From a virus, in the IMG/VR virus record IMGVR_UViG_3300025872_000037, positions 62,001 through 126,000 of that record: a DNA stretch of 64,000 nt; one strand, given 5' to 3'. The notes below the pieces were generated by a model. It did no database searches. It was given only the letters and a program-made list of their open reading frames with translations, and was not told the DNA's origin. Made by a program: the position numbers and the translations under genes. This document shows, piece after piece, positions 7,905 through 31,079 of the stretch (within the stretch, counting starts at the first letter, position 1; each line of letters opens with the position of its first letter).

Positions 7905-8340
7905 TCACCGCCAGACTCCGGCTTCAAGGAGTCCAAACGACCGACATAGGGGGATCCAATCCGCGCCCTGAAAGCGCGATAGGGACCGAAGCAATTCGTT
8001 CTTTTTAGATAAAACCGAGCGGCCCCGGACGCTCATTAAAATAATTCGCCGGGCTTCTTTCCTGCCTGCACTGAAGTACGGGTTCATTCCGAGAAGCAGA
8101 AATGCTCTAGGTGCAGGTGGGACTATTTTGCGGCCAGTTTCGACTGGCAGGTGCAACCGCAGTAACGGGTTCTGCGCAAACAAAAACCCGGCCAATTTCC
8201 CGAAGCACGATTCGGACTCACAGATAGGTTGAAGATGGCAATGTAGCTTTGCCACCGATCTCACTGTCATCCTCATAACCCACACCGCGGGGCTACACGG
8301 TGTGGTGTCTTACTGAGGTGACTGAGCTCGGCCTCGTAAA
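7905..8340 (+). ncRNA. Hairpin-dense non-coding region, candidate large structured RNA
   Basis: About 435 nt without a credible gene. Nine or more stems: GACTCC/GGAGTC (7914-7933), CGCGC/GCGCG (7962-7978), GAGCG/CGCTC (8017-8034), CCTGCAC/GTGCAGG (8065-8117), CCAGT-TTCG-ACTGG (8134-8147), CGGGTT/AACCCG (8166-8190), CCGAA/TTCGG (8200-8215), TGGCAA/TTGCCA (8236-8254), CACACCG/CGGTGTG (8281-8304). Large ornate RNAs such as GOLLD and ROOL are known to sit beside phage tRNA genes; size and location fit, but I cannot test membership. Confidence 0.45.
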
Positions 8341-8362
8341 GCTGTGAGCGGGAATTCATTTT

Positions 8363-8437
8363 GCCCTTGTAGCTCAGTGGTAGAGCGCCAGTTTTGTAAA
8401 CTGGATGTCGTCGGTTCAAGCCCGACCGGGGGCTCCA
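8363..8437 (+). tRNA. tRNA-Thr(UGU)
   Basis: Acceptor GCCCTTG/CGGGGGC, D-arm TAGCTCAGTGGTAGAGC, anticodon stem CCAGT/ACTGG with loop TTTGTAA (anticodon TGT), T-arm GTCGG-TTCAAGC-CCGAC, encoded CCA. Confidence 0.93.
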
Positions 8438-8523
8438 TTTTCGTCCGCTTGTCTAGCGGGTTCGACGCGGTCGGTGCGATACGGTCCGCGATACCAAAAG
8501 CCTTAACCGTGTCGCCAATTTAT

Positions 8524-8651
8524 CTCCGAGAGAGGGTGAGTGAACACCTCCGTTAGCGGTAGAACTTCAATGATGCTAACGGGTATGAGCCACACGAAGT
8601 AGAGAATTGAAGCTCGAACGTGTTATAGCAGCTTAATCAGCTGCCTCGGAG
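8524..8651 (+). ncRNA. Candidate five-helix-junction RNA
   Basis: 128 nt closed by a perfect 7-bp helix CTCCGAG (8524-8530) with CTCGGAG (8645-8651). Inside, in order: hairpin 8532-8550 (GGTG/CACC core), CGTTAGC/GCTAACG (8551-8557 with 8575-8581), ACACG/CGTGT (8592-8596 with 8619-8623) and GCAGCT/AGCTGC (8628-8633 with 8639-8644). No tRNA D- or T-arm. Just upstream are two further hairpins, CCGCT/AGCGG (8445-8459) and CGCGG/CCGCG (8466-8490), which may belong to it. Confidence 0.5.
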
Positions 8652-8658
8652 TCCCTTT

Positions 8659-8733
8659 GAGTGTGTAGTGTAACGGTCAGCACCGGCTAGCCTGCGGGCC
8701 CTGTGAGTGCGGGTTCGACTCCCGTCACACTCA
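8659..8733 (+). tRNA. tRNA or tRNA-like element, anticodon unresolved
   Basis: Perfect acceptor GAGTGTG/CACACTC, normal D-arm (GTGT...GCAC) and T-arm GCGGG-TTCGACT-CCCGT, but the middle (GGCTAGCCTGCGGGCCC) does not form a standard 5-bp anticodon stem with a U33 loop, and the spacing between the D- and T-arms is about 2 nt longer than usual. No CCA is encoded. Either a decayed tRNA or an unusual one. Confidence 0.6.
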
Positions 8734-8745
8734 ATTCATTTCTGC

Positions 8746-8822
8746 GCGCCAGTGTCGTTGAACGGTTAAACAGCTGTCTGCAAAGCAGCAAAATGCAGGT
8801 TCGATTCCTGTCTGGCGCTCCA
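8746..8822 (+). tRNA. tRNA-Cys(GCA)
   Basis: Acceptor GCGCCAG/CTGGCGC, anticodon stem GCTGT/GCAGC with loop CTGCAAA (anticodon GCA), T-arm GCAGG-TTCGATT-CCTGT, encoded CCA. Confidence 0.9.
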
Positions 8823-8828
8823 ATTTAC

Positions 8829-8920
8829 GGAAGAGTGGCTGAGTGGGTTAAGGCAACGGTCTTGAAAACCGTCGTGGCGTATAGTCGTCACCGTGAGTTC
8901 GAATCTCACCTCTTCCGCCA
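8829..8920 (+). tRNA. tRNA-Ser(UGA)
   Basis: Acceptor GGAAGAG/CTCTTCC, anticodon stem ACGGT/ACCGT with loop CTTGAAA (anticodon TGA), long class II variable arm, T-arm GTGAG-TTCGAAT-CTCAC, encoded CCA. Confidence 0.93.
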
Positions 8921-8926
8921 TTTTAT

Positions 8927-9005
8927 AGAGAGTTAAGGGCACTGCTACCGGACGATCGCGGTAGGTTCACGTAGCTTAATAAGCACACATAGCTAAACAC
9001 TCTCT
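8927..9005 (+). ncRNA. tRNA-sized structured element with acceptor-like helix
   Basis: 79 nt bounded by a perfect 7-bp pair AGAGAGT (8927-8933) / ACTCTCT (8999-9005), with hairpins CTACCG/CGGTAG (8945-8964) and TAGCT/AGCTA (8972-8995). No TTCRA T-loop and no anticodon arm. A T-rich run follows (TCTTCTTTTT), so a terminator reading of the outer helix is possible. Confidence 0.35.
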
Positions 9006-9011
9006 TCTTTT

Positions 9012-9066
9012 TAGCCTCCACTTGAGGGTGAACCACAGAGCTGGGGTAGATGAATCCAGCAGGCTA
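9012..9066 (+). ncRNA. Small hairpin element between tRNAs
   Basis: TAGCCT (9012-9017) pairs with AGGCTA (9061-9066), enclosing GCTGG/CCAGC (9040-9060). It ends 3 nt before tRNA-Leu(UAG). Could be a leader or processing structure for that tRNA. Confidence 0.3.
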
Positions 9067-9069
9067 TTT

Positions 9070-9153
9070 GCACTAGTGATGGAACGGCAGACATGAAAGT
9101 CTTAGAAGCTTTTGCCGCGAGGCGTACAGGTTCAAGTCCTGTCTAGTGCACCA
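9070..9153 (+). tRNA. tRNA-Leu(UAG)
   Basis: Acceptor GCACTAG/CTAGTGC, D-arm typical of leucine tRNA, anticodon loop CTTAGAA (anticodon TAG), class II variable arm GCC-GCGA-GGC, T-arm ACAGG-TTCAAGT-CCTGT, encoded CCA. Confidence 0.92.
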
Positions 9154-9162
9154 ACAATTTTA

Positions 9163-9238
9163 GGGCCATTAGCTCATTTGGCAGAGCGCCTGATTTGCAT
9201 TCAGGAGGTGAGCGGTTCGACCCCGCTATGGTCCACCA
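9163..9238 (+). tRNA. tRNA-Ala(UGC)
   Basis: Acceptor GGGCCAT/ATGGTCC, anticodon stem CCTGA/TCAGG with loop TTTGCAT (anticodon TGC), T-arm AGCGG-TTCGACC-CCGCT, encoded CCA. Confidence 0.93.
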
Positions 9239-9240
9239 CT

Positions 9241-9352
9241 TTGGTGTAGGGTTAAGACGGTTCGAATCCGTCGTCGCCTTTGGATCGGCGCTAGTAAACC
9301 GTTTTGGACAAGGCGAGCGCTCGCTGATAAGGTTCGAACCCTTACACACCAA
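9241..9352 (+). ncRNA. tRNA-like element with two T-arms
   Basis: Outer helix TTGGTGT (9241-9247) / ACACCAA (9346-9352). Two canonical T-arm stem-loops: GACGG-TTCGAAT-CCGTC (9256-9272) near the 5' end and TAAGG-TTCGAAC-CCTTA (9328-9344) at the 3' end. Between them are CGCC/GGCG and GCGAGCGCTCGC hairpins. No ordinary D-arm. It could be two tRNA remnants fused, a tRNA interrupted by another, or a permuted gene. Confidence 0.45.
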
Positions 9353-9357
9353 TCTAT

Positions 9358-9426
9358 TCCTGCTGGGGCTCTGATCAGAGCGCGCATAACGAGGAGCATC
9401 ACCTCGAGAGTCCACGAACAGCAGGA
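9358..9426 (+). ncRNA. tRNA-sized element closed by an 8-bp helix
   Basis: TCCTGCTG (9358-9365) pairs perfectly with CAGCAGGA (9419-9426). Inside are GCTCTG/CAGAGC (9368-9381), which resembles a D-arm, and CGAGG-AGCATCA-CCTCG (9390-9406), a 5-bp stem with 7-nt loop but without U33. No T-arm and no CCA. Confidence 0.4.
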
Positions 9427-9436
9427 TTCAATTTAT

Positions 9437-9507
9437 GCCGGCACGGTCAATCGCGAGACTGGTTAAAATCAGACGAGAGTGTACTGATACCGAAAATGCC
9501 GGCACCA
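9437..9507 (+). ncRNA. CCA-ending tRNA-like element lacking a T-arm
   Basis: 71 nt. Perfect acceptor GCCGGCA (9437-9443) / TGCCGGC (9497-9503), discriminator A and encoded CCA (9505-9507), exactly as in a tRNA. Inside, CGGT/ACCG encloses GTC/GAC and ATCAG/CTGAT hairpins, the latter with an 11-nt loop. There is no TTCRA T-loop and no clear anticodon arm. Confidence 0.5.
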
Positions 9508-9515
9508 ATTTCTAC

Positions 9516-9590
9516 ACGGACGTGGTACATTAGTAGTGCAGCAGTCTCCAAAACTGCCTTATGGGGGTGCGATTCCCTCCGTCCGTGCCA
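9516..9590 (+). tRNA. tRNA-Trp(CCA)
   Basis: Acceptor ACGGACG/CGTCCGT, anticodon stem GCAGT/ACTGC with loop CTCCAAA (anticodon CCA), T-arm GGGGG-TGCGATT-CCCTC with an unusual TG at the loop start, encoded CCA. Confidence 0.88.
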
Positions 9591-9596
9591 TTTTAC

Positions 9597-9673
9597 GGGG
9601 TGGTAGCTCAGCTGGTTAGAGCGTCTGCCTGTCACGCAGAAGGTCGCGGGATCGAGGCCCGTCCATCCCGCCA
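9597..9673 (+). tRNA. tRNA-Asp(GUC)
   Basis: Acceptor GGGGTGG/CCATCCC, anticodon stem TCTGC/GCAGA with loop CTGTCAC (anticodon GTC), discriminator G, encoded CCA. The T-loop is ATCGAGG rather than TTCRANN, another atypical T-loop in this array. Confidence 0.9.
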
Positions 9674-9678
9674 TTTTT

Positions 9679-9753
9679 GCCGCCATCGTCTAACGGTCAG
9701 GACAGCGGGTTTTCATCTCGCTAATCGGGGTTCGATTCCCCGTGGTGGTACCA
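9679..9753 (+). tRNA. tRNA-Glu(UUC)
   Basis: Acceptor GCCGCCA/TGGTGGT, anticodon stem GCGGG/CTCGC with loop TTTTCAT (anticodon TTC), T-arm closing on TTCGATT, encoded CCA. Confidence 0.92.
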
Positions 9754-9766
9754 TTTTTACGTATGT

Positions 9767-9774
9767 TATAAATA
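9767..9774 (+). promoter_or_regulatory. T4-like late promoter
   Basis: TATAAATA followed 12 nt later by the start codon of the HNH gene at 9787. Confidence 0.65.
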
Positions 9775-9786
9775 GGTCATAAGTTT

Positions 9787-10227
9787 ATGACCAAAAACGA
9801 AAAAATTAGTCAAGCATTAAAGAAGCGTTTTAGCAAACAGCCGCATCACAAAAAAGGTAAAGCTGGTAAAAAGCACGATAAAATCGCAAAGCAAAAAATA
9901 CGCGAAGCTTTAATAAAACATTATGATTCTGCAGGAAGAATGTCCGATGCGCAGAAAAAAGCACGCAATAAAGCTAATGTTTATGCTTACAGAGCTAGAA
10001 AACGAAATGCGATACCAGAAAATGCAAATTTAGCTCTAATAAAACTAATTTATGAAAAATGTCCAGAAGGTTATCACGTAGATCATATAATTGCATTGGC
10101 ATCTGGAGGTCTACACCATCAAGATAATCTTCAATATTTACCTATTGCGGAAAATTGCCGCAAAGGTAAAAGCAATAATTACAATTCTTCTTTAGCCAAA
10201 GATTGGCGAGATTTTATTGGCATGTAG
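9787..10227 (+). CDS. HNH homing-type endonuclease, AT-rich, in tRNA array
   Basis: 146 residues. A very basic N-terminal half (KKRFSKQPHHKKGKAGKKH) precedes the HNH core YHVDHIIALASGGLHHQDN and LQYLPIAENCRKGKSN. Base composition is visibly AT-richer than the flanking tRNAs, a sign of separate origin. It has its own late promoter, and its last codons run 10 nt into tRNA-Asn, so the gene inserted without destroying the tRNA. Likely a free-standing mobile endonuclease. Confidence 0.85.
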   Translation: MTKNEKISQALKKRFSKQPHHKKGKAGKKHDKIAKQKIREALIKHYDSAGRMSDAQKKARNKANVYAYRARKRNAIPENANLALIKLIYEKCPEGYHVDHIIALASGGLHHQDNLQYLPIAENCRKGKSNNYNSSLAKDWRDFIGM

Positions 10228-10292
10228 TTCAATGGTAGAACCCGCGACTGTTAATCGCGCAATTGGTTGTTCGACTCAACCCATGCCAGCCA
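10218..10292 (+). tRNA. tRNA-Asn(GUU)
   Basis: Acceptor TGGCATG/CATGCCA, anticodon stem CGCGA/TCGCG with loop CTGTTAA (anticodon GTT), T-arm GGTTG-TTCGACT-CAACC, encoded CCA. The first 10 nt overlap the HNH gene. Confidence 0.93.
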
Positions 10293-10302
10293 GTTTATTT
10301 TT

Positions 10303-10379
10303 CGGCGCGTAGCACAGCCTGGTAGTGCACTTGCTTTGGGAGCAAGCCGTCGGGGGTTCGAATCCCTCCGCGCCGACCA
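10303..10379 (+). tRNA. tRNA-Pro(UGG)
   Basis: Acceptor CGGCGCG/CGCGCCG, anticodon stem CTTGC/GCAAG with loop TTTGGGA (anticodon TGG), encoded CCA. Confidence 0.93.
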
Positions 10380-10386
10380 TTTTCGA

Positions 10387-10461
10387 TGGCCCATTGTGTA
10401 ATGGTTAGCACAGCTGACTTTGACTCAGCTAGTTGGGGTTCGAGTCCCTGTGGGCCAGCCA
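10387..10461 (+). tRNA. tRNA-Gln(UUG)
   Basis: Acceptor TGGCCCA/TGGGCCA, anticodon stem GCTGA/TCAGC with loop CTTTGAC (anticodon TTG), encoded CCA. Confidence 0.93.
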
Positions 10462-10465
10462 ATTT

Positions 10466-10566
10466 GAGCAGAGTCCTAGCTGTTCGTAAAACAGGAGCCG
10501 GTGTGATCGGTATTGCCGTTGTTCAGCGGGTAACCGTGCGCGGGAGAATCGGGTGCTGCTCTTTTT
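10466..10566 (+). ncRNA. Structured element closed by GAGCAG/CTGCTC and a T-run
   Basis: GAGCAG (10466-10471) pairs with CTGCTC (10556-10561), followed by TTTTT. Inside are CTGTT/AACAG and CCG/CGG hairpins. It may be a small RNA with its own terminator, or the terminator of the preceding tRNA block. Confidence 0.4.
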
Positions 10567-10571
10567 ACTTT

Positions 10572-10667
10572 ATGAAAAAACCTGAAAACTTATCACAGAT
10601 CCTTCTAGTTATCCTGGCGGTCATCGCCGATATTTTCTTAATCGTAAACGTCATCCATCACTGGTGA
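10572..10667 (+). CDS. Membrane mini-protein (31 residues)
   Basis: M-K-K start, then a single hydrophobic stretch QILLVILAVIADIFLIVNVI, ending HHW. The charge pattern suggests a one-pass inner-membrane peptide. It sits between a structured RNA and a second membrane mini-gene that starts one base after its stop. No family recognised. Confidence 0.5.
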   Translation: MKKPENLSQILLVILAVIADIFLIVNVIHHW

Positions 10668-10668
10668 C

Positions 10669-10809
10669 ATGATCACTCGTCTCGTTCAATTAGTGTTTCT
10701 TTCCGTTCTCATTCCGGCTGCGATCTCAGCATTTTTGATCGTGGCCGTTACGTTAACTGCAAGCATCGTGGTAGGATTTCTGGTCCTATTCCACAGATTG
10801 CTCTCGTAG
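10669..10809 (+). CDS. Membrane mini-protein (46 residues)
   Basis: Starts one base after the previous stop, with no clear ribosome-binding site, so coupling is likely. Nearly the whole protein is hydrophobic (LVQLVFLSVLIPAAISAFLI, then VAVTLTASIVVGFLVLF), enough for one or two membrane passes. Paired with the preceding 31-residue gene. A lysis- or membrane-related role is possible but unproven. Confidence 0.55.
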   Translation: MITRLVQLVFLSVLIPAAISAFLIVAVTLTASIVVGFLVLFHRLLS

Positions 10810-10815
10810 CTTCTT

Positions 10816-10891
10816 GGTCCTGTAGCTCAATGGTCAGAGCAGAGGACTCATAATCCTTTGGTTGTGGGTTCAAGTCCCACCGGGACCACCA
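10816..10891 (+). tRNA. tRNA with CAU anticodon (Met, or Ile if modified)
   Basis: Acceptor GGTCCTG/CGGGACC, anticodon loop CTCATAA (anticodon CAT), T-arm GTGGG-TTCAAGT-CCCAC, encoded CCA. It has no initiator features (1-72 is paired and there is no triple G-C in the anticodon stem). Confidence 0.9.
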
Positions 10892-10906
10892 TATATACTT
10901 TTGTAC

Positions 10907-10982
10907 GCGGTAGTAGCTCAGTTGGTAGAGCGCCATCCTTCCAAGCTGGTTGTCGCAGGTTCGAATCCTGTCTGCCGCTCCA
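10907..10982 (+). tRNA. tRNA-Gly(UCC)
   Basis: Acceptor GCGGTAG/CTGCCGC, anticodon stem CCATC/GCTGG with one T-C mismatch, loop CTTCCAA (anticodon TCC), T-arm GCAGG-TTCGAAT-CCTGT, encoded CCA. Confidence 0.9.
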
Positions 10983-10991
10983 ATTTACTTG

Positions 10992-11068
10992 GTCCTCGTA
11001 GCTCAACCGGAAAGAGCACCGTTTTTCTAAATCGGTGGTTGTGGGTTCGAGTCCCGCCGTGGACGCCA
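10992..11068 (+). tRNA. tRNA-Arg(UCU)
   Basis: Acceptor GTCCTCG/CGTGGAC with one T-T mismatch, anticodon stem CCGTT/ATCGG with one mismatch, loop TTTCTAA (anticodon TCT), discriminator G, encoded CCA. Confidence 0.88.
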
Positions 11069-11075
11069 TTTTGAC

Positions 11076-11153
11076 TTTGCGAGGAATCGCAAATGGTGGA
11101 GGGGTAATCCCAACACCCCCTGGAAGTGGGAAGCGCATACTTAAATCACGCTT
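11076..11153 (+). ncRNA. Hairpin cluster upstream of the tmRNA
   Basis: TTTGCGA-GGAA-TCGCAAA (11076-11093), GGGG/CCCC near 11101-11119, and AAGCG/CGCTT (11131-11153) shortly before a T-run at 11160-11164. Probably a leader or the terminator of the tRNA block; no gene seen. Confidence 0.35.
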
Positions 11154-11164
11154 AACTAATTTTT

Positions 11165-11541
11165 GGGCCTGTTCTGGATTCTATTCAGTGACAGACTTAT
11201 TGTAAGCAAGCATGGTTGCTGGACCATTCAACATCAGCAAAAACACAAACGGCATCTCAAATGTCATCGAGGCGATCTTCGGTACTCGTACCGAGGAGCT
11301 TCAGCTCGCAGCCTAAGAAACTGTGACCGACACGTCGTCCGATTCTCGCTGAGTCGACGGTCGTCATCAAGCGAGACTGATCTTCGAGAATTGTGGCTCG
11401 GTAGAAGAATCAGTACACTCTAGCCATTACGCCAGGAGAGTTGATAGCGACAGCTCCTGGCATGATCACAGCTATCTAAGCTTGTAGAAAACGATCGGAA
11501 AAGCACTGAACACACGGGTTCGACTCCCGTCAGGTCCACCA
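11165..11541 (+). ncRNA. ssrA: tmRNA (transfer-messenger RNA)
   Basis: 377 nt. The 5' end GGGCCTGTTCTGGATTC matches the conserved tmRNA start, and the 3' end carries T-arm ACGGG-TTCGACT-CCCGT and CAGGTCC-A-CCA, pairing with GGGCCTG. An H-type pseudoknot fits PK1: AGCAA/TTGCT (11205-11220) interlocked with ATGG/CCAT (11212-11227). About 12 nt later an open frame begins near SKNTNGISNV (11236) and ends GTRTEELQLAA, stop 11314-11316, with the hairpin CGGTAC-TC-GTACCG inside it. The LAA end is the usual degradation signal read by ClpXP. tmRNA frees stalled ribosomes and tags the broken product. The tag is long (about 25 residues) and does not start with Ala, so the exact resume codon is uncertain. 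Confidence 0.9.
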
Positions 11542-11700
11542 CTATTCCTTCGGTAACTTACGAAGGCAGACTAATCCCTCGACGAAGACTACCTCAAACC
11601 TGTCGCCGTCCTCAACTCTGAGCATGGCGGGTGTGAGTTCTTCATCAAAGAAAAGTGAGCCATCAGTGGTAAGTCTGAGGTCGTATCCGTGGAATCTCAT
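11542..11700 (-). CDS. Small acidic protein on the minus strand, unknown
   Basis: 52 residues (starts MRFHGYDLRLTTDG, ends LRKLPKE). It has a good ribosome-binding site AAAGGA before the ATG and a late-promoter-like CATAAATA (minus strand, 11714-11721). Its stop codon lies directly against the CCA end of the tmRNA, so the two are convergent. No recognised family; composition and RBS support a real gene. Confidence 0.65.
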   Translation of the reverse strand: MRFHGYDLRLTTDGSLFFDEELTPAMLRVEDGDRFEVVFVEGLVCLRKLPKE

Positions 11701-11713
11701 GGGTGTTCCTTTC

Positions 11714-11721
11714 TATTTATG
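11714..11721 (-). promoter_or_regulatory. T4-like late promoter (minus strand)
   Basis: CATAAATA read on the minus strand, 13 nt before the start codon of the small gene at 11700, with AAAGGA in between. Confidence 0.5.
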
Positions 11722-11749
11722 AAATGCTTAGAATTCGTTCACTTTTTTG

Positions 11750-11777
11750 TTTACAGGGTCATGCGGCAGTGTATGAT
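11750..11777 (+). promoter_or_regulatory. Early-type promoter before a non-coding region
   Basis: TTTACA (11750-11755), 16-nt spacer, TATGAT (11772-11777). No gene follows for more than 1 kb; the product is presumably RNA. Confidence 0.6.
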
Positions 11778-11783
11778 CTGATC

Positions 11784-12063
11784 ATAGTCAATTTTGTTCT
11801 TTTTCAACTTTTGTGACGGAATAAGCCTTTTCCTTAGGGCTAACGTATAACCACGGTGAAGAACCGCGGTTAGTTCCGGGACTTGTAAGTAAGTAAGGTA
11901 CTACGCTGAGGCCTAGGTTGGCCAACCGAAGCTACCAGAGGTACGGGTTGTAAGCATGAAATATCATGATATGGCGACTCGTTACGGTGCGACGGCACCA
12001 TCTGACTGAATAACTGAAGGCAAGTTCCCCGGATGGAGGTAATCATTAGTCCTCCCAATTTTT
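11784..12063 (+). ncRNA. Candidate structured RNA with long-range closing helix
   Basis: No credible gene. Hairpins AGCC/GGCT near 11824-11840 and AACC-CGGT/ACCG-GGTT (11849-11871) are followed by a domain closed by CCGGGACTTG (11876-11885) with CAAGTTCCCCGG (12021-12032), two bases bulged. Inside: TACC-AGA-GGTA, CATGA/TCATG and GGTGC-GACG-GCACC. It ends with GGAGG/CCTCC (12035-12055) and a T-run, a plausible terminator. A promoter lies at 11750-11777. Confidence 0.5.
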
Positions 12064-12065
12064 AC

Positions 12066-12370
12066 TTTCGAGGCTTGATCTCCTCGAAACCCTCTCCCTT
12101 AGCAGCATTCACTAATCTATTGTCTGCACGGATGTTCGGTAGGGAACAAATGCTGGTAATGATGAAATAGACATCGGCTGGCACTACACGACAACGCTAC
12201 TGTGAGAGGGTACTCTTTCATCATACTCGACTAGGCGAGTCTAAATAGAAGAATAGGCCTAGTGCGGCAGATGCATCAGTGCGTAGCGCAAAGTGCATCT
12301 GCGACTTGCCACGCCACAGCTCCGGTGAGCTCAGGATTAAAGCTAAAAGCGCTGTGTGAATAAACACGAG
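12066..12370 (+). ncRNA. Candidate structured RNA domain with a pseudoknot
   Basis: Hairpin TTTCGAGG/CCTCGAAA (12066-12089). Then a domain closed by ACCCTCTC (12089-12096) / GAGAGGGT (12204-12211) containing CAGCATT/AATGCTG (12103-12155), GTTC/GAAC (12134-12146) and a likely pseudoknot TCTATT (12116-12121) with AATAGA (12166-12171). Farther on: ACTCG/CGAGT, GCAGATGCA/TGCATCTGC and CACAGC/GCTGTG stems. No reading frame of note. Confidence 0.45.
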
Positions 12371-12404
12371 GACAAAAATTGGCTAATGTATATCTCATAT
12401 GGCC

Positions 12405-12412
12405 GATAAATA
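12405..12412 (+). promoter_or_regulatory. Late-promoter-like element upstream of tRNA-Met
   Basis: GATAAATA, one mismatch to the T4 late consensus, about 60 nt before the tRNA at 12474. Confidence 0.4.
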
Positions 12413-12473
12413 AATCTCGTTGCGATAAGATATTCGCCAGCGTGGCACCTCTTTCAAGTTCTTTTCAATTTAT

Positions 12474-12548
12474 TGCAGTGTGGAGCAGTGGCAGCTCGCT
12501 TGGCTCATAACCAAGAGGTCAGGGGTTCGATTCCCTTCTCTGCACCCA
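12474..12548 (+). tRNA. tRNA with CAU anticodon (second Met-type)
   Basis: Acceptor TGCAGTG/CTCTGCA with one T-T mismatch, D-stem GAGC/GCTC, anticodon stem CTTGG/CCAAG with loop CTCATAA (anticodon CAT), T-arm AGGGG-TTCGATT-CCCTT, discriminator C and encoded CCA. The D-arm looks like initiator tRNA, but 1-72 is paired and the triple G-C is absent. Confidence 0.85.
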
Positions 12549-12936: not shown

Positions 12937-14448
12937 ATGCGTAATAACACACATAATAATCCAAACCTGAAGAACGGATTGCTTATCAGCATTCTTTTCT
13001 TCTTTTTTGCAGCTTCAGCAGCAGCGCTCCCAAGCACTGGTGCTTCTAACCTCCAGACAACTCCTGGAGTAACGTTCACGCAGTCGGGTTCGACGCTGGC
13101 GTTTAATGCCCCGGATCGGGCGATTCTGAACTGGAACAACTTTGGTTCCGGTACAGATCATATCGCGGTTGCTGACACTATCAGGTATAATCTTCCTGGT
13201 GCTGCAGCATCGGTCCTTAACATCGTTTCCGGTGGTGCACAGACCACGATCAACGGAACGATTGAATCAAACGGAAAAGTTTACGTGCTAAATCCAAACG
13301 GCATCGTGATCGGTGGCACCTCACGCATCGATACCAATGCATTTGTTGCTAGCGCAGTGGACAATCCATTTGCTGCACAGTTCAAGTACATGGCTGATGG
13401 AGTTATTCCTTCAGAGGTGGGTGGACAGCGTACTGCAAATGGTAACGTTGTTGCTCAAACTGGTGCAATCTTTGCAACTCCTAATGTGGTCATTCTTGGC
13501 AAGGATATCACCATCGGTGGTGTCTTGACTGCCGGAAATATGCTGCTTGGTGGAGATGGCGCAGTGGTCGTTGGTGGTGCAGCATCAACCACGTGGGTTT
13601 CTGGTGATTTGACAATCACTAATCCTACTGGCACAACTACGATTGGAGTTCCTACCGCTAACGTCGGCACCAATAATGCTATTTCCGTCATTTCGACATC
13701 TGGCGATATTACTAATGCTATTGGTTCTCGTGTTCTAGGAAAGAATCTGATCGCTAACACTGTTAGTGGTAATGTCACACTTGCCGCTGTTGCTACAAGC
13801 GCAGTCACTGCAAATGGCAAGAACGTCACAGTTGCATTTGACGCCGGATCACTCACACCAAGCTTCTCGGGATCTGCAGTCACTGGCCTAACAGTCACTG
13901 CTCCTGCTTATCTGCTCTTAGCTGATGTCAAGGGCGACGCTGCCAATAACAGCTTCACAGCTGGTGGCACACTGACTCTTGGCAAGGTTCATCTGGGCGG
14001 TAGCGCATCCTTCACGGGATCTCGTGTAGTTGACTCGGTTGACAGCGTATTCGTCTATGACCGTACGTCATTCTCCGCCACCGCTGGAGATGTTGCAGTT
14101 ACCAAGGCTGGTCACAGCTTCGGCCCTCTGTCGATCTCTGCCACTGGCAATGGTACTGTCTATGAGAATGCTACGATCAATCTCAATGCTGTGAACGTCA
14201 AGGAGCTTGTCCTGAAGACAAAGGAAGCATTCTTCCAGACTCCTAACACCTTCGCTCTGACAGCCACGAAGTTCTCGCTCGATACTCTCGGCGCAGTCAC
14301 CTTCACCGGCGGTACGATCTCGAACGGTCTGACGATCAATGCAGGATCAGGTAACGTTGACCTGAGCAAGCTAAGCCTCGTCACCAATCTGAATAGCGTT
14401 GCTCCAGTTGTCACCACAACCGGTACGGTTGCTAACCCAGCTCAATAA
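12937..14448 (+). CDS. Secreted TPS-domain (filamentous-haemagglutinin-type) beta-helix protein
   Basis: 503 residues. An N-terminal signal peptide (hydrophobic ISILFFFFAASAAA) is followed by the two-partner-secretion haemagglutination domain: TTINGTIESNGKVYVLNPNG and IVIGGTSRIDTNAFVAS (about residues 103-137) match the NPNG block of that family. The remainder is Gly/Thr/Val-rich repeats typical of a right-handed beta-helix. In bacteria such proteins are exported adhesins. Here the gene sits alone behind a late-promoter-like element and overlaps the next gene by one base. A phage carrying this is unusual. It lacks the long repeat region of true FhaB, so it may be a compact surface adhesin. 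Confidence 0.8.
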   Translation: MRNNTHNNPNLKNGLLISILFFFFAASAAALPSTGASNLQTTPGVTFTQSGSTLAFNAPDRAILNWNNFGSGTDHIAVADTIRYNLPGAAASVLNIVSGGAQTTINGTIESNGKVYVLNPNGIVIGGTSRIDTNAFVASAVDNPFAAQFKYMADGVIPSEVGGQRTANGNVVAQTGAIFATPNVVILGKDITIGGVLTAGNMLLGGDGAVVVGGAASTTWVSGDLTITNPTGTTTIGVPTANVGTNNAISVISTSGDITNAIGSRVLGKNLIANTVSGNVTLAAVATSAVTANGKNVTVAFDAGSLTPSFSGSAVTGLTVTAPAYLLLADVKGDAANNSFTAGGTLTLGKVHLGGSASFTGSRVVDSVDSVFVYDRTSFSATAGDVAVTKAGHSFGPLSISATGNGTVYENATINLNAVNVKELVLKTKEAFFQTPNTFALTATKFSLDTLGAVTFTGGTISNGLTINAGSGNVDLSKLSLVTNLNSVAPVVTTTGTVANPAQ

Positions 14449-23233: not shown

Positions 23234-23241
23234 TATAAATA
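23234..23241 (+). promoter_or_regulatory. T4-like late promoter overlapping a start codon
   Basis: TATAAATA whose last base is the A of the annotated ATG at 23241. A transcript from it would begin inside the gene. Confidence 0.5.
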
Positions 23242-23430: not shown

Positions 23431-23691
23431 ATGAGCGCAAACGAAGATCCTATTTTTGATTTTGGATTTACAGCAGTTGACGAGAACGAACTGGAGGTCA
23501 CAAAGCAAGTTGATGTGGCGTACCAGCGCGTTGCCGAGCACGAGGACAAGCTTAATCGGCTTTATAATGCAATACTTCCTCTCCTACAGAATCTAAAGAA
23601 GAACCCAGAAAAGGAATACATTAAGTGGCCTAATCGCGTCAAGAAGGTAGAGGAGTTTGAGACATTCATCGCCAAGATCATCACTGAATGA
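23431..23691 (+). CDS. Conserved T4-like small protein
   Basis: 86 residues from ATG 23431. DFGFTAVDENELEV and KLNRLYNAILPLLQNLKKNP, followed by YIKWPNRVKKVEEF, form a pattern repeatedly seen in cyanophage-like T4 relatives. No known function. It overlaps the next gene by 4 nt (ATGA). Confidence 0.75.
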   Translation: MSANEDPIFDFGFTAVDENELEVTKQVDVAYQRVAEHEDKLNRLYNAILPLLQNLKKNPEKEYIKWPNRVKKVEEFETFIAKIITE

Positions 23692-23972
23692 ACTTCGAGA
23701 CCTTCAAGTCAATAATGGATTTGGGCTTCTCGGTAGCCGCAGTGGCTGTCGGCGGAGTCTTCATAGTGATCTTACTGAAGTACATCCTGGCCGGAGTTGT
23801 TTCAGATGTGGAATCGCTCAACGGTCTGGCTACGATGTTGAACAATCGTATTCGTACCATGAATAACGATCTGATTAGGATTGACGCTCTTGTATCCTCG
23901 CGCTTTGGTCTGAGAGTCGATCTAGAAAGATTGGCGCGTACTGACGGAAAGACCGATGCAAGAAGAGATTAA
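23688..23972 (+). CDS. Small one-pass membrane protein
   Basis: 94 residues. Membrane segment VAAVAVGGVFIVILLKYILA, then a helical region (ATMLNNRIRTMNNDLIRIDA) probably in a coiled coil. It is similar in layout to the next gene, hinting at duplication or a two-part complex. Confidence 0.65.
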   Translation: MNFETFKSIMDLGFSVAAVAVGGVFIVILLKYILAGVVSDVESLNGLATMLNNRIRTMNNDLIRIDALVSSRFGLRVDLERLARTDGKTDARRD

Positions 23973-24312
23973 TACTTTTAAAAATGCAGTAAACCAATAC
24001 GGCCTGCCCATCATGGCTGCGGGCGGCATGGGATACTTCATTTACTTCGTCTGGAAATTTGTGACTGAAAATATCAACTCGAAGCTATCAGAAGCAAAGA
24101 AAACGATGATTGCTCTGATCGATAGAATCCGTATGCTCGATAACGATCTGATTCGTCTTGAGCAAAAGATCAATACTGCTATCGAGGTACAACGCGGCGA
24201 AAATCCAATAAGCCGCACAAACCCTCCAATACCAAAACCGGATGAAACAAAACCGCAACCAGTCATCAGACACGTGGATGCTTCTAACTCTAGCAATAAT
24301 CCTGTTTCTTAG
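23956..24312 (+). CDS. Small one-pass membrane protein with coiled coil
   Basis: 118 residues. Membrane segment IMAAGGMGYFIYFVWKFV, then coiled-coil IDRIRMLDNDLIRLEQKI, which closely parallels the NNRIRTMNNDLIRID helix of the preceding gene, and a Pro-rich tail. It overlaps csgF by 71 nt, so these membrane genes lead directly into the curli operon. Confidence 0.65.
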   Translation: MQEEINTFKNAVNQYGLPIMAAGGMGYFIYFVWKFVTENINSKLSEAKKTMIALIDRIRMLDNDLIRLEQKINTAIEVQRGENPISRTNPPIPKPDETKPQPVIRHVDASNSSNNPVS

Positions 24313-24742
24313 CATAATGCCATCTTGTGTCCGTGGATCGGACATGGTGCATTCGTTTAAGTCTCCAGCATTCAACGGTATCGGGTATTCATCTCATGTT
24401 TTTACTCAGGAGAATTTAGCACGTACTCGAAAGCAGACAATTAAGGACGTTGCGAAGGCAGAGGCAGAAAATCTTAAGCTTGCAGGGCAGAATACTCCGC
24501 TGAATAACTTCATCGTTAATCTTCAGGCAAGAATCTACTCGCAGCTTGCATCTCAGGTTACCGACGAGATCTTCAATGCATCGGGTGCTACTTTTGGCGT
24601 TATCAATTTGCAAGGTGGAGCAACAGTAACATGGAATAGAGCAGGGGATTTTGTCACTCTGTACATCGTCGATCCTTCTACAGGAAATACGACTTCAATT
24701 CAGGTGCCAGTAGGATCGCTAGGCACTCCTCCAAACGGATGA
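24242..24742 (+). CDS. csgF: CsgF-like curli assembly protein
   Basis: 166 residues. Signal peptide (LLTLAIILFLSIMPSC), then the CsgF opening VHSFKSPAFNGIGY and a C-terminal LYIVDPSTGNTTSIQVP that parallels the DxxTGxxTxIxV ending of CsgF. In curli, CsgF caps the CsgG pore on the outer face and couples secretion to fibre nucleation. The overlap with csgG (ATGA) supports this identity. The middle Ala/Gln-rich helical region is longer than I expect from CsgF. Confidence 0.85.
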   Translation: MKQNRNQSSDTWMLLTLAIILFLSIMPSCVRGSDMVHSFKSPAFNGIGYSSHVFTQENLARTRKQTIKDVAKAEAENLKLAGQNTPLNNFIVNLQARIYSQLASQVTDEIFNASGATFGVINLQGGATVTWNRAGDFVTLYIVDPSTGNTTSIQVPVGSLGTPPNG

Positions 24743-25554
24743 TACGAGCGCTGATAGCAATTACGCTGGGGCTGTCTTTAGTTGGCTGTGGCTCGCTGCC
24801 GAGATCGCCGCGCATTATCGAAGCGCCGTTGGCTCAACAGTCACCATTGCAGAAGCAACTCAATTCTCTGCCAACAATGGATGGCAGCCGAATCACGATT
24901 GCTGTCTATACATTTGCTGACAAGACTGGACAGAGAAAAACAGTTGATCAGTATGCATCCTTTTCTTCGGCCGTTACTCAAGGTGCAGAATCATGGTTGA
25001 TCGATGCACTCAGAATTGCAGGACAGGGCAAGTGGTTTCAGGTTCTAGAACGCGCATCTCTGGACAATCTTATCAAGGAACGGCAGTTGATCGCGCAGAC
25101 ACGAGAATCCTTCTTCGGTAAAGAGGCCGAAAAACTATCACCACTACTTTTTGCGGGAATCATCGCAGAAGGCGGGATTATCGGATACGACACTAACGTA
25201 CTGACAGGAGGAGCCGGTGCCAGCTTACTTGGAATCTCTGGTAGCACTCAGTACCGCAAAGATGTAGTTACTGTTTCGCTTCGATTCATTTCAGTTCAAA
25301 CTGGCGAGGTCCTACTGTCTGTGGCTGTCACAAAGACAATCACAAGTGTCGCGACCTCCGGAAACCTTTTTAAGTTTTATGAGCATGGAGTAACTCCCGC
25401 AGAATCGGAAATTGGCCTGACTGCAAACGAACCCAACACAATTGCGGTTCGCAGTGCTATTGACCAGGCTGTGATTGAAATCATATATCAGGGAGCCAAA
25501 ACTGGATTATGGAAATTCGTCACAGCTAACAACCAACCCACAACCGACAAATGA
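24739..25554 (+). CDS. csgG: CsgG-like curli secretion channel lipoprotein
   Basis: 271 residues, the normal CsgG length. Lipobox LSLVGCGS (Cys17). Then ITIAVYTFADKTGQRK, FSSAVTQGAESWLIDAL, LERASLDNLIKERQLI, LLFAGIIAEGGIIGYDTN and DVVTVSLRFISVQTGEVLLS, all hallmarks of CsgG in the right order. CsgG forms the nine-membered outer-membrane pore that secretes curli subunits. It is translated by overlap between csgF and the curlin-like gene. Confidence 0.95.
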   Translation: MIRALIAITLGLSLVGCGSLPRSPRIIEAPLAQQSPLQKQLNSLPTMDGSRITIAVYTFADKTGQRKTVDQYASFSSAVTQGAESWLIDALRIAGQGKWFQVLERASLDNLIKERQLIAQTRESFFGKEAEKLSPLLFAGIIAEGGIIGYDTNVLTGGAGASLLGISGSTQYRKDVVTVSLRFISVQTGEVLLSVAVTKTITSVATSGNLFKFYEHGVTPAESEIGLTANEPNTIAVRSAIDQAVIEIIYQGAKTGLWKFVTANNQPTTDK

Positions 25555-26357
25555 AGACCTCAGTCGTAGCACTCACACTGCTTCTGCTCTCAGCTGCGAC
25601 AGCACTGGCTCAGAATCAGATATACATAAATCAAATAACAACTGGTGGAAACACCACGCTCGTTCAGGTTGGAAGCCTGAACAAAATCGGCACTTCGGCT
25701 GCAGCCCAAAGTGACATCACTGGAGATAACATCGTGTTCGAGATGCGCCAAATCGGCAATAGTAATGACACGAAGTTCTCCATTGCTAGCGCCAATAATC
25801 TGAAATTACTGACAGTTGCTACTGGCAACAGCAACACTCAACAGTATTACTTCAGCGGCGCCAGCAACAATGCAAACATACTGCTGAATGGAAACTCAAA
25901 CAAGTTCTTACTCAATGGAGATACCTCGGTGGATCACACATCGAATAGTGATACCACTAAGGCTACCTTCACCAATTCGGACCTTATCTTCAACGTTCAA
26001 GGTAATTCCAACGACCTGCGCTTTGGAATTAGTTCAGGTAAATACAACTACCTGGACTACTCGATCACTGGTGACTCCAATAACATCAAGTCCACCCAAA
26101 TCGGAAACCCAGGAGGCGCTGCTGCAAAAACTGGTCACGAGCAGACCGTTGTGCTTACAGGCTCAAGCAACAACCTGACAATCTATCAGGCCGGACTTGA
26201 AAAGCAGACTCTGAACTACACGATGACTGGATCGACAAATAACGTGCAGATTGTTCAGACAACTGCCGGTTATGCTCCGATTATGACTACAAATGGAACG
26301 AATGGACCTACTGGGCCATCACAGACTACAAATTCAATTACTCCTCCAGGAAATTGA
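25551..26357 (+). CDS. Curlin-like (CsgA/CsgB-type) repeat protein
   Basis: 268 residues. Sec signal peptide ending in ALA, then an N-terminal QNQIYINQI and about seven repeats of about 20-25 residues built around G(N/D/S)SN motifs: GNSNDTKF, GNSNTQQY, GNSNKFLL, GNSNDLRF, GDSNNIKS, GSSNNLTI, GSTNNVQI. This matches the Asn/Gln/Gly-rich repeats of curli subunits, although the exact Q-G-N spacing is looser than in E. coli CsgA. Likely exported through CsgG to form surface fibres or a decoy coat. Confidence 0.75.
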   Translation: MKTSVVALTLLLLSAATALAQNQIYINQITTGGNTTLVQVGSLNKIGTSAAAQSDITGDNIVFEMRQIGNSNDTKFSIASANNLKLLTVATGNSNTQQYYFSGASNNANILLNGNSNKFLLNGDTSVDHTSNSDTTKATFTNSDLIFNVQGNSNDLRFGISSGKYNYLDYSITGDSNNIKSTQIGNPGGAAAKTGHEQTVVLTGSSNNLTIYQAGLEKQTLNYTMTGSTNNVQIVQTTAGYAPIMTTNGTNGPTGPSQTTNSITPPGN

Positions 26358-26372: not shown

Positions 26373-27518
26373 ATGAAGTTTGGCCAGACAGCCGCTATTG
26401 CTTTAGCTTTAGCGGCTGCTTCGTCTGCAAAGGCTTATATCGGAAAGATGATGGAGGTCACTGGCCCTACGCAGATCGTGCGAGGCAAAGACAAGATTGA
26501 AGGTAAAGTAGAGGTTGGAGTTGAGATGAATGACTCAGTCGAGACTTTAAAATCTCGTGTGTCCATCACGTTCGAGGATAATACTAAGATGCAAGTCACA
26601 GAGTTCTCGAAGCTCAAGATCGATGAGTTCGTTTATGATCCAAAGAGTGGTAAAGGATCACTGTCTGTCAAGGCTGCATTCGGCACTGTGAGGTACGCAT
26701 CCGGAGCCATTGCCAAGAACAGTCGAGAAAACGTCAAGGTTCAGACTCCGACAGCCAAGGTTTCGGTGCGTGGTACTGACTTCTCTATGACGGTATCGGA
26801 GGACGGCAAGAGTCTGATCGTCCTTTTACCATCAAAGCCACTGGCGGCCGGAGGACCTCCGTTGGTTGGAGAGATCTCAGTGTCGAATCTCTCCGGAACT
26901 GTGATGCTCAATCAGGCGTATCAGGCCACATTCGTTGCGTCATCCACGATTGCACCGACAGTACCAGTGATACTAGACTTTCAGGATGAGTCAAAGATCA
27001 ACAATATGCTCATCGTGGAGACTCCGCGCCAGGTGTCTCAGGCTGTTAAAGAGCAAAAGAAAGAAAAGCAGAATCAATCTAGCAATGAAGAAGATAATAA
27101 ACCGAAAAGGGGAGCCAGCACAAAGTCTGAAAACAATAAGACTGCGGTTTCTCAGGTCGATACGCCACCAACTGCTGAAGCAGTGGCTCAGACAGAAGAG
27201 CCAGCTCCTGTCGAAACTAAGTTAGAATTGGCAGCAATCCAGCCTGCAGTATTGCAGGCGGCCGCTCAGGCAATCGAGAAGGTAGTGGCTCCAGCTGCGC
27301 CAGTTACTCCTGTTCTGGTAAGTATGACAACAAATCCTGGATGGTCTACAGATGGAGTGAATGCTATACTCTCGCTTGATAACAGCGGACAGATCCTGTA
27401 CTACACCACAAAAGCAAATGCCAGTCTGACAGTGGAGGTCACGACAGCAGCAGGTACTAAAACATACCCGCTAAACTTTGGCGATAAATCATCTGTGAAA
27501 GTAATACAAAAGAAATGA
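26373..27518 (+). CDS. FecR-domain protein
   Basis: 381 residues. Signal peptide (ALALAAASSAKA), then the FecR domain: TGPTQIVRGKDKIEGKVEVG, VSITFEDNTKMQVTEFSKLK and VKAAFGTVRYASGA, followed by VQTPTAKVSVRGTDFSM, the typical closing strand. A long Lys/Glu/Pro-rich linker and a C-terminal beta domain follow. FecR-domain proteins sense envelope signals. The gene overlaps the cyclase gene by 4 nt, a pairing known in bacteria, where FecR proteins lie beside CHASE2 cyclases. Confidence 0.85.
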   Translation: MKFGQTAAIALALAAASSAKAYIGKMMEVTGPTQIVRGKDKIEGKVEVGVEMNDSVETLKSRVSITFEDNTKMQVTEFSKLKIDEFVYDPKSGKGSLSVKAAFGTVRYASGAIAKNSRENVKVQTPTAKVSVRGTDFSMTVSEDGKSLIVLLPSKPLAAGGPPLVGEISVSNLSGTVMLNQAYQATFVASSTIAPTVPVILDFQDESKINNMLIVETPRQVSQAVKEQKKEKQNQSSNEEDNKPKRGASTKSENNKTAVSQVDTPPTAEAVAQTEEPAPVETKLELAAIQPAVLQAAAQAIEKVVAPAAPVTPVLVSMTTNPGWSTDGVNAILSLDNSGQILYYTTKANASLTVEVTTAAGTKTYPLNFGDKSSVKVIQKK

Positions 27519-29557
27519 AGAAACATACTCTCAAAACACTTGCAGTTGGCTTTAGTGTGCTCGTCGTAGCAATCTTGCTACGTATCTGGGATCCATATCC
27601 GATTGAGGTGTTACGCCTAAAAGGTTTAGATTACTACCAGCGACTACAAGAAAAGCGTGTGGCAGAAAACATCGCGGTGATCGAGATCGATGAAGACGCG
27701 CTAGAAACAAATGGCCAATGGCCCTGGAAGCGCGATGTTCTTGCCGCGGGTATTCAGCGGGCATTTGACGAAGGCGCGTCAGCTGTTGTGCTTCCAATCA
27801 TTTTTGCAGAACCAGATCGTCTAGGCGGCGATGCTGCATTTGTCGAGCAACTCGGCAAGGCGCCAGTCATCATCGCTCAATCGGCTGCACAAAAGGGCAA
27901 AGGTGAGCCAGTACCGCGCGGTCTTGCAACAATCGGCGGAGGTGCTGAAGATTGGCTATTCGATTATCCAGCGGCAATAGGACCAGTTGGTGACATTGGT
28001 AAATCAGCTGCAGGTGTAGGCATGCTACTAACAGCACCCGAACTTGATGGCGTGGTACGTCGCTTACCACTGATTGTTCAGGTCAAAGGCGAGAAATATC
28101 CTACTCTACCACTTGAAGTGCTGCGCGTCTTTGGCGGCGAGGCAAGCAATCAAGCTAAAGTATCTGAGGCGGGTATTTCAGCAATTCGAGTTGCTGGTAT
28201 TCCGCCAATCAAAACCGATGCGAATGCGCGAGTCTGGCTCAATTTCAAGTATACCTTTCCATCGGTAGCATACACCGCAAAAGATTGGTCAGCGATAAAA
28301 GGAAAGATTGTTGTTATCGCGCCGACAGCAGAAGGTCTTGCAAATACTGTTGCTACTCCACTCGGAACAAGTTATGGATATGAAGTTAATCTGCAGGCAT
28401 TGCAAATGCTGATCGATGAAGCACGTCTCGAACGTCCCGCAGAATTTGATCTGTATGAGCTAGGCGCTGGTCTGCTAGTTGCAGCAATTGCAGTGGTAAC
28501 GATCTGCTACCTAGGATATGGCATCGCTGGCCTGATCTTTGCTGTACTTGCTGCTCTGCCGATCGGCGCAGGATTCTATCTGTTTAATCTGGGTATGCTT
28601 GCCGACTATACCTGGATCGTGGGCGCGTTGATTGCAAGCTGGGGATCTGCGCTGTTTATGCGCTTCGTGATGGAATTCAAGCTCAAGCAGCAAATCAAGA
28701 AGCAGTTCGAGACATACCTCTCACCGGATCAGGTCGCACAGCTGCAGAAGAATCCCGATGCACTCAAGCTGGGTGGCGAGGAACGCGAGCTCTCGATTAT
28801 GTTCACTGATGTCCGCGGATTCACCGCGATCTCTGAGCACTACGGAAAGAACGTGCAGGGACTGACGCAGATTATGAACCGCTATATGACTGCAATGACG
28901 CGCTCGATCATTGAAAAGAAAGGCACACTTGACAAGTACATCGGTGATGCTCAGATGGCATTTTGGAATGCGCCGCTTGATGATAGTTCTCATGCCATCC
29001 ATGCCGTCGAGACAGGACTTGAAATGATGGGTAGCCTCAAAGCGTTCAATGAAGAGATCGCAAGGGAAGGTGTGCCGGCATTCGGTATGGGATTGGGAAT
29101 TAACACTGGTACTGTAGTCGTAGGCAATATGGGATCTGAGCAGCGGTTCGACTACACCTGTCTAGGCGACCACGTCAATCTTGCTTCTCGCCTTGAGGGT
29201 CAGTCAAAACCGTACGGCGTCAAAATTGTGCTTGGACCAGTGACACGAGAGAAGGTCAAGGATGTCTATCCTACGCTCGAGCTCGACTGCATTGCAGTGA
29301 AAGGCAAGAAAGAAGGCGTGAAGATCTACACTGTTTTCGATAAGGGTACTAGTACCTATTCTAGCAGCCATGACCATTTCTTGGAATACTACCGCGCACG
29401 CCAGTGGGACAAAGCGATTGCACTGGCAAAAGACCTTGCTACTCGGATGGATTTCATGGCTGGATACTATGAGATGATGATCGAACGAATCGAGTATCTG
29501 CGCGACAATGACCCGGGCGAACAGTGGGATGGCGTCTACAGAGCGACATCTAAGTAG
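27515..29557 (+). CDS. CHASE2-domain class III adenylate cyclase
   Basis: 680 residues. An N-terminal membrane segment (about residues 8-24), a CHASE2 sensor domain (about 30-300, with IAVIEIDEDALETNGQWPWK near its start), three membrane segments (about 315-390), a short linker and a class III cyclase domain (about 420-600). Catalytic residues are complete: metal-binding Asp432 (FTDVRGFT) and Asp478 (IGDAQMAF), adenine-binding Lys474, and Asn555 and Arg559 in NLASRLEG. This predicts cAMP synthesis controlled by a periplasmic signal. It is the last gene of the csgF-csgG-curlin-FecR operon; its stop lies just before the next promoter. Confidence 0.93.
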   Translation: MKKHTLKTLAVGFSVLVVAILLRIWDPYPIEVLRLKGLDYYQRLQEKRVAENIAVIEIDEDALETNGQWPWKRDVLAAGIQRAFDEGASAVVLPIIFAEPDRLGGDAAFVEQLGKAPVIIAQSAAQKGKGEPVPRGLATIGGGAEDWLFDYPAAIGPVGDIGKSAAGVGMLLTAPELDGVVRRLPLIVQVKGEKYPTLPLEVLRVFGGEASNQAKVSEAGISAIRVAGIPPIKTDANARVWLNFKYTFPSVAYTAKDWSAIKGKIVVIAPTAEGLANTVATPLGTSYGYEVNLQALQMLIDEARLERPAEFDLYELGAGLLVAAIAVVTICYLGYGIAGLIFAVLAALPIGAGFYLFNLGMLADYTWIVGALIASWGSALFMRFVMEFKLKQQIKKQFETYLSPDQVAQLQKNPDALKLGGEERELSIMFTDVRGFTAISEHYGKNVQGLTQIMNRYMTAMTRSIIEKKGTLDKYIGDAQMAFWNAPLDDSSHAIHAVETGLEMMGSLKAFNEEIAREGVPAFGMGLGINTGTVVVGNMGSEQRFDYTCLGDHVNLASRLEGQSKPYGVKIVLGPVTREKVKDVYPTLELDCIAVKGKKEGVKIYTVFDKGTSTYSSSHDHFLEYYRARQWDKAIALAKDLATRMDFMAGYYEMMIERIEYLRDNDPGEQWDGVYRATSK

Positions 29558-30650: not shown

Positions 30651-31079
30651 ATGAAAATGATACTTGCGCTTCTTGCTCTGACGACCGCTGCGGCTGCTGC
30701 CGACCAGTCGCGTCTGATTGATGCGTTGATCCGCGTCGAGTCAAATGGCAACGCCGCTGCGGTGGGCGACTCCGGCAAAGCTCTCGGCATTCTTCAGATC
30801 CATGCGATTACTGTCGCCGAGGCTAACCGCCTGTCTGGCAAGCACTTTACGCATCGTGAGATGCTCGACCCTACTAAGGCGCGCGCTGTTGCCGAGATTG
30901 TGCTAAGCCATTACTCTAAACACATTAGCAAAACGACCGGCCGTGATGCGACCAACAAGGAATTGGCGTTCATCTGGAACGGTGGTGCGGGCGCATGGAA
31001 GCGAGTCGCCAATCCGGTGGCCGACGCCAAGCAGAAGAACCTCGAGAACTACTGGAACAAAGTTTCGCGGTCGCTGTAA
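30651..31079 (+). CDS. Exported SLT-type lysozyme / lytic transglycosylase
   Basis: 142 residues. Signal peptide MKMILALLALTTAAAAA, then LIDALIRVESNGNAAAVGDS with catalytic Glu30, GKALGILQIH, LAFIWNGGAGAWKR and the closing helix, the pattern of the SLT transglycosylase fold. It cleaves peptidoglycan in the periplasm, presumably during lysis or entry. It is controlled by a double-box early-type promoter, which is surprising for a lysis enzyme. Confidence 0.85.
   Translation: MKMILALLALTTAAAAADQSRLIDALIRVESNGNAAAVGDSGKALGILQIHAITVAEANRLSGKHFTHREMLDPTKARAVAEIVLSHYSKHISKTTGRDATNKELAFIWNGGAGAWKRVANPVADAKQKNLENYWNKVSRSL

Follow-up and report, generated by a model that had tools for sequence, protein, structure and literature searches.

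A FecR-domain protein and a predicted CHASE2 receptor adenylyl cyclase close a curli operon conserved in T4-like phages

Main finding

The window analysed here, a stretch of 64,000 nucleotides that corresponds to bases 62001-126000 of a 128-kb virus record, carries on one strand an operon with the order csgF-csgG-curlin-fecR-cyclase, closed by a FecR-domain gene and a gene for a predicted CHASE2 receptor adenylyl cyclase. Comparison with viral relatives shows that these five genes are conserved together, as a single unit under selection, in T4-like phages. Within this type VIII secretion (curli) operon of a phage, the FecR/cyclase pair most likely forms the regulatory end. The arrangement is not new in kind, as it has been published for SAR11 and OM43 viruses, of which the phage studied here is a more distant relative. 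Hence, the novelty that the first-pass annotation saw in this pairing is not borne out: Wittmers et al. 2022 (PMC9599517) described curli modules of phages that include FecR and an adenylate cyclase, and the module is annotated in cultured phages. What the present analysis adds is a divergent example, strong evidence that its genes are under selection, and complete operons of this kind in bacteria. If active, the cyclase would be a virus-encoded receptor enzyme that produces a second messenger within bacterial cells and travels together with a machine for fibre secretion, in phages whose hosts are abundant aquatic bacteria.

The cyclase and the FecR-domain protein

The two genes that close the operon, and their parts, are the following.

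26373..27518, + strand: FecR-domain protein gene, 381 aa (PF04773, E 1.4e-9; predicted model; Foldseek)
27515..27518, + strand: ATGA start/stop overlap of 4 nt between the fecR stop and the cyclase start, shared by 60 of the 70 viral loci with FecR
27515..29557, + strand: CHASE2 receptor adenylyl cyclase gene, class III with adenylyl-type residues, 680 aa (Pfam, residues, predicted model)
27593..28429, + strand: CHASE2 periplasmic domain, residues 27-305 (Pfam, model)
28781..29335, + strand: cyclase catalytic domain, residues 423-607, with D432, K474, D478, T548, N555 and R559 (Pfam, model, Foldseek)

The cyclase ORF matches CHASE2 (PF05226, E 3.2e-41) and Guanylate_cyc (PF00211, E 3.4e-20) and retains all class III catalytic residues, namely the five listed by the first-pass annotation (D432, K474, D478, N555, R559), whose ORFs and coordinates are also correct, and T548, which it had left out. 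K474 and T548 are the adenylyl-type substrate-selecting pair of class III cyclases, T548 being the class IIIb adenine-specificity position. In the alignment of 81 viral cyclases, the metal-binding aspartates D432 and D478, as well as K474 and the transition-state arginine R559, are invariant (81/81 each), the transition-state asparagine N555 is present in 80 sequences and replaced by S in one, and position 548 is T in 78 and D in three. The closest solved relatives are mostly adenylyl cyclases; at the position of K474, a glutamate stands in Cya2, the closest guanylyl cyclase of solved structure, and a lysine, as in the phage cyclase, in the matching construct 6fht, annotated as bacteriophytochrome/adenylate cyclase.

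The model predicted with AlphaFold2 from 48 viral sequences (mean pLDDT 83.5) places CHASE2, at about residues 27-305, between one N-terminal membrane helix (2-25) and three more at 311-398 (311-332, 335-358, 366-398), and the cyclase domain at the C-terminus (423-607), with a loop of low confidence at about 537-546. The four modelled helices and the Pfam match uphold the earlier claim of a full CHASE2 sensor with membrane segments. Foldseek matches the cyclase fold to Pseudomonas CyaB (3r5g; 33-35% identity, target TM-score 0.84-0.86) and to Arthrospira CyaC (E 1e-13 to 1e-14 for CyaB/CyaC), so that structure prediction and comparison, proposed in the first-pass annotation as a check, recover both the fold and the CHASE2 receptor layout. 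By its residues, the cyclase looks catalytically intact and of adenylyl type, and chance is excluded as the source of the cyclase and FecR assignments.

The model of the FecR-domain protein comprises a signal peptide (about residues 1-21), a FecR beta-domain (about 24-200) that is itself well predicted, a disordered linker (about 215-320), and a small C-terminal beta-domain (about 324-368), for which Foldseek identified no separate fold match; no further Pfam domain scores above the cut-off. The best Foldseek folds are PupR and other anti-sigma cell-surface-signalling (CSS) domains. The cytoplasmic anti-sigma N-terminus is absent, as all that precedes the FecR domain is a short, hydrophobic stretch resembling a signal peptide (helix 3-16, then AKA). 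The 128-kb record, which is possibly incomplete, has no match to sigma-70 region 2 (PF04542), the mark of a cognate ECF sigma factor (FecI). On both grounds, the reading as an iron-type FecIRA anti-sigma regulator is rejected and the protein is not to be filed under that type; its modelled layout looks like that of a secreted, soluble protein. The name of sensor given to it earlier is thus unproven, in view of its secreted appearance, the missing anti-sigma part, and the finding that perception of the plant signal by S. meliloti does not require the FecR gene located next to cyaD1 (PMC5498481). A curlin-like V-x-I-x-Q strand apparently often stands at the end of FecR proteins.

Genomic context of the operon

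Upstream of the pair, the operon and its approaches are organized as follows.

23234..23241, + strand: T4-type late-promoter-like box TATAAATA (T4 late-promoter core), upstream of the module
23688..24312, + strand: two related small membrane and coiled-coil ORFs (23688-23972, 23956-24312) of PHROG 18771, which adjoin the module here and are not always with it elsewhere
24242..24742, + strand: csgF (PF10614, E 2.4e-15)
24739..25554, + strand: csgG, outer-membrane curli pore lipoprotein (PF03783, E 1.2e-49)
25551..26357, + strand: curlin-like repeat protein gene, with homologues in third place of the operon in 63 viral loci and a profile match to curlins in the bacterial loci L087 and L198

The matches of CsgF and CsgG bear out the earlier suggestion that the operon also holds curli genes. 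The curlin-like protein has no Pfam match, and a profile built from its phage relatives picks up bacterial curlin proteins. The two PHROG 18771 ORFs are 54-55% identical to hypothetical ORFs located just upstream of csgF in phage HTVC008M, and in L064, L076, and L077 such ORFs are encoded by the other strand and follow the cyclase gene. None of the three small ORFs upstream of csgF contains a histidine-kinase domain in Pfam searches with E up to 0.1, and their reading as histidine kinases is rejected for want of a domain match.

Boxes of the TATAAATA type are enriched in the window (8 vs 2.2 expected). The nearest relatives (L002, L003, L005, L008, L011, L012, L014-L017) keep the box in a comparable position, 0.8-1.0 kb ahead of csgF, yet most others lack it, so that it can be taken just to suggest late expression of the module. 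Soon after the module, a lysozyme-like SLT transglycosylase gene is found (30651-31079, + strand; PF01464, E 2.9e-9), relatives of which lie downstream of the cyclase in 19 viral loci.

T4-like genes are found in the flanks, namely those for RNase H, DNA ligase, gp32, and a gp5-like tail lysozyme; the gp32 comparison places the phage just broadly among T4-like phages, and a comparison of 19 kb at the DNA level matches no phage record. Further away, a 503-aa protein with a TPS/filamentous-haemagglutinin domain (12937-14448, + strand; PF05860, E 9.7e-14; TIGR01901, E 3.6e-14) has no match among 50,697 phage records and no ShlB-type partner (PF03865) in the record; it may be a second surface adhesin in addition to curli. 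An array on the + strand (6952-12548) holds 17 tRNA genes and a tmRNA gene (11165-11541, tag GISNVIEAIFGTRTEELQLAA), and between the latter and a tRNA-Met gene lies a match to the Pistol ribozyme (RF02679, 12225-12284, + strand; 36.9 bits, cut-off 34.5). In phage Melnitz, the tmRNA is in two pieces and controlled by a glutamine riboswitch (PMC9004378); in the window, no riboswitch scores above threshold.

Conservation and selection among viral relatives

The viral comparison comprises 80 IMG/VR loci that were fetched by the cyclase, which is consequently present in all of them by construction, so that the loci are not independent. A profile search detects FecR in 70 of the 80, and in six of the ten loci without it the contig starts no more than about 125 bases from the cyclase. 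The survey of phages for a CHASE2 cyclase beside FecR, another check suggested at the outset, recovers the pair widely among these loci; the overlap of the two genes, noted by the first-pass annotation, is 4 nt long in 60 of them. The genes csgF, csgG, and curlin lie upstream of the pair in most viral loci with enough room, and the same gene order recurs in dozens of viral contigs, in relatives down to about 50% identity. Exceptions are L064, L074, and L078, with a second curlin between FecR and cyclase, and L039, in which unrelated genes are inserted between the two and both are kept. The inserts of L039 (7732-9962, - strand, opposite to fecR and cyclase) are a QueD-like and a radical-SAM-like gene, named from sequence reading.

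The five operon genes have dN/dS values of 0.007-0.13 against close relatives where dS is estimable; these values rest on the closest relatives, because several dS values are saturated. The curlin gene is among those under strong purifying selection. Moreover, genes of the window flanks (gp32 and others) are near the module in 22 viral loci, the GC content of the module matches that of the flanks, and the cultured phages HTVC008M and Melnitz (Kyanoviridae) carry the module with annotated cyclases. The stretch at 24-29 kb is therefore phage DNA, as the first-pass annotation had assumed, rather than a bacterial contig wrongly joined to it.

Bacterial counterparts and origin

Bacterial relatives were sought by a pattern scan of one genome per species across 84,980 species, and the 80 best loci, out of more than 80, are mostly from Proteobacteria, with Alphaproteobacteria at the top. 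Among these best 80 loci, fecR is directly upstream of a CHASE2 cyclase in 12, which agrees with the earlier remark that the pairing exists in bacteria, and 11 of the 12 have no adjoining csgF/csgG match by the viral profiles, indicating that the FecR-CHASE2 pairing is independent of curli.

The complete operon in the same order is nonetheless present in two alphaproteobacterial-type chromosomes, as comparison of the loci shows. L087, a Caulobacteraceae MAG, has csgF-csgG-curlin-curlin-fecR-cyclase on one contig, next to glycosyltransferase-like, peptidase-like, and TonB-receptor-like genes (named from translations), and the GC content around its module differs from that upstream. csgF is found in 42 of 398 genomes of the order of L087; among the 20 of these 42 that were inspected widely, L198 is the sole case of a full operon, located on a 705-kb contig with ordinary bacterial neighbours. 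Curli-cyclase linkage is thus rare in bacteria, being known in two of the 42 csgF-positive genomes (the 20 inspected widely, plus L087), and among 385 genomes of the class a full-length module-type FecR occurs in the genome of L087 only.

A maximum-likelihood tree built from 39 cyclases places its 15 viral sequences together on one side of a branch (100/100), and the L087 and L198 cyclases adjoin them (100/100), apart from the other bacterial cyclases. The same picture emerges from a larger quick tree, in which the viral clade has 91% SH-aLRT and the long-branch row L120 is unplaced. On these trees, the L087 and L198 cyclases are sister to all sampled viral cyclases, and the simplest reading is that an already complete alphaproteobacterial operon entered phages once, although, with just two bacterial members, the direction of transfer is not proven. 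These bacterial operons represent a likely source and are possibly more tractable for learning the role of FecR and cyclase in curli.

Proposed mechanism and alternatives

That a phage sets host cAMP through such a cyclase, as first proposed, is plausible. The reading that we favour, with moderate confidence, is a curli-coupled circuit from envelope to cAMP, in which the cyclase would be an envelope-responsive cAMP source acting on host receptors. Specifically, the cyclase would be inserted into the inner membrane of the host and expose CHASE2 to the periplasm, where CHASE2 may restrain it until an envelope state is sensed, such as curlin, CsgG, or FecR traffic; once released, it would convert ATP into cAMP. 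The cAMP would act on receptors of the host, because no protein with a cNMP-binding domain (PF00027) is found in the phage record and a phage-encoded receptor is to that extent rejected; the record may be incomplete, so that a receptor of the phage itself may lie beyond it. In this way, the phage would adjust the metabolism or the surface properties of its host during the display of amyloid fibres by the infected cell.

Several lines of evidence support this circuit: the conserved gene order and fecR/cyclase overlap (60/70 viral loci), the conserved catalytic residues with low dN/dS, the adenylyl-type K474/T548 pair together with the modelled topology and fold, the complete operons of L087 and L198 with cyclases sister to the viral ones, and the bacterial fecR genes directly upstream of CHASE2 cyclases. 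Precedents come from S. meliloti, whose CHASE2 cyclases respond via the outer-membrane barrel protein NsrA (PMC13001267), and where CyaD1 deprived of CHASE2 produces cAMP constitutively (PMC5498481). Conversely, the circuit is weakened by the S. meliloti FecR gene, which is dispensable for plant-signal perception, and by the rarity of curli-cyclase linkage in bacteria. A bolder version, which we put forward tentatively, is a phage transmembrane circuit in which a virus-made receptor cyclase monitors the virus's own amyloid secretion across the host envelope and sets host cAMP; the phage would have acquired the module in one piece from a curli-FecR-cyclase operon that is rare in Alphaproteobacteria. 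If true, surface remodelling would be coupled to host physiology or lysis timing.

Rather unlikely, in our judgement, is that the cyclase raises host cAMP to reprogramme metabolism or surface receptors independently of curli, the link with curli being co-inheritance. The bacterial pairs devoid of curli genes would fit this, as would L039, which keeps FecR and cyclase despite the inserted genes, but two observations speak against it, namely that most loci conserve a compact gene order with overlaps of 4 nt, and that the five-gene order is repeated in two bacterial lineages.

Less probable still is the reuse of the curli pore as a gated pore or pinholin for lysis timing, with FecR and cyclase as gate or timer instead of regulators of fibre display. 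A bare pore needs no curlin, whereas curlin accompanies csgF and csgG in most loci under strong purifying selection, and the same operon occurs in non-viral contigs; a lysis role has, on the other hand, been proposed for the curli pore of Melnitz (PMC9004378), and the SLT gene soon after the module and the late-promoter-like box upstream are in line with it.

It is very improbable that the product is a different cyclic nucleotide from cAMP, or one able to disturb a cyclic-nucleotide defence of the host, given the conservation of the adenine-type K/T pair (with D at 548 in three and S at 555 in one of 81 sequences), the mostly adenylyl nature of the closest solved relatives, and an origin among bacterial CHASE2 cyclases. 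Lastly, such operons do exist in bacteria, but the idea of misassembled bacterial DNA or a decaying hitch-hiker has a negligible chance of being correct and is rejected, the former by the order recurring in many independent viral contigs with relatives down to about 50% identity, the isolates Melnitz and HTVC008M, the flank genes, and the matching GC, the latter by intact frames, conserved catalytic residues, and low dN/dS.

Comparison with known systems

The closest published system is the pelagiphage type VIII secretion module (PMC9599517), which is found in T4-like myophages and consists of the same five families, arranged identically and thus with FecR ahead of the cyclase; the occurrence of csgF and csgG in pelagimyophages has also been reported (PMC7029224). 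The phage studied here differs in its divergence, reflected in the lack of a DNA-level phage match over 19 kb. Moreover, an upstream histidine kinase is reported for the published modules, although it is not universal to their definition, whereas the upstream region here encodes small proteins without a kinase domain. HTVC008M and Melnitz, whose hosts are SAR11 and OM43, respectively, have annotated csgF, csgG, curlin, and cyclase genes, with cyclases 40-42% identical to that of the phage studied here; both have a second curlin gene between FecR and cyclase, which is missing here. In HTVC008M (L249), the second curlin-repeat protein (6676-8001) carries a PA14 domain (E 2.7e-6). As regards the receiving end in such hosts, titles and abstracts in the literature give no clear information on cAMP receptors in SAR11.

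Among bacterial systems, clusters of Campylobacterota (PMC9239204) likewise bring together a CHASE2 cyclase and a FecR-domain protein; they add a cAMP phosphodiesterase and a TPR gene, and curli genes are outside the described cluster. The CyaD1, CyaD2, and CyaK proteins of S. meliloti (PMC5498481, PMC13001267) are CHASE2 receptor cyclases, with a FecR-domain gene near cyaD1. That system is bacterial, employs the Crp-family receptor Clr, and has no curli genes described, whereas the phage studied here carries them; its conversion of an envelope signal into cAMP is the process to which the circuit proposed for the phage can be likened.
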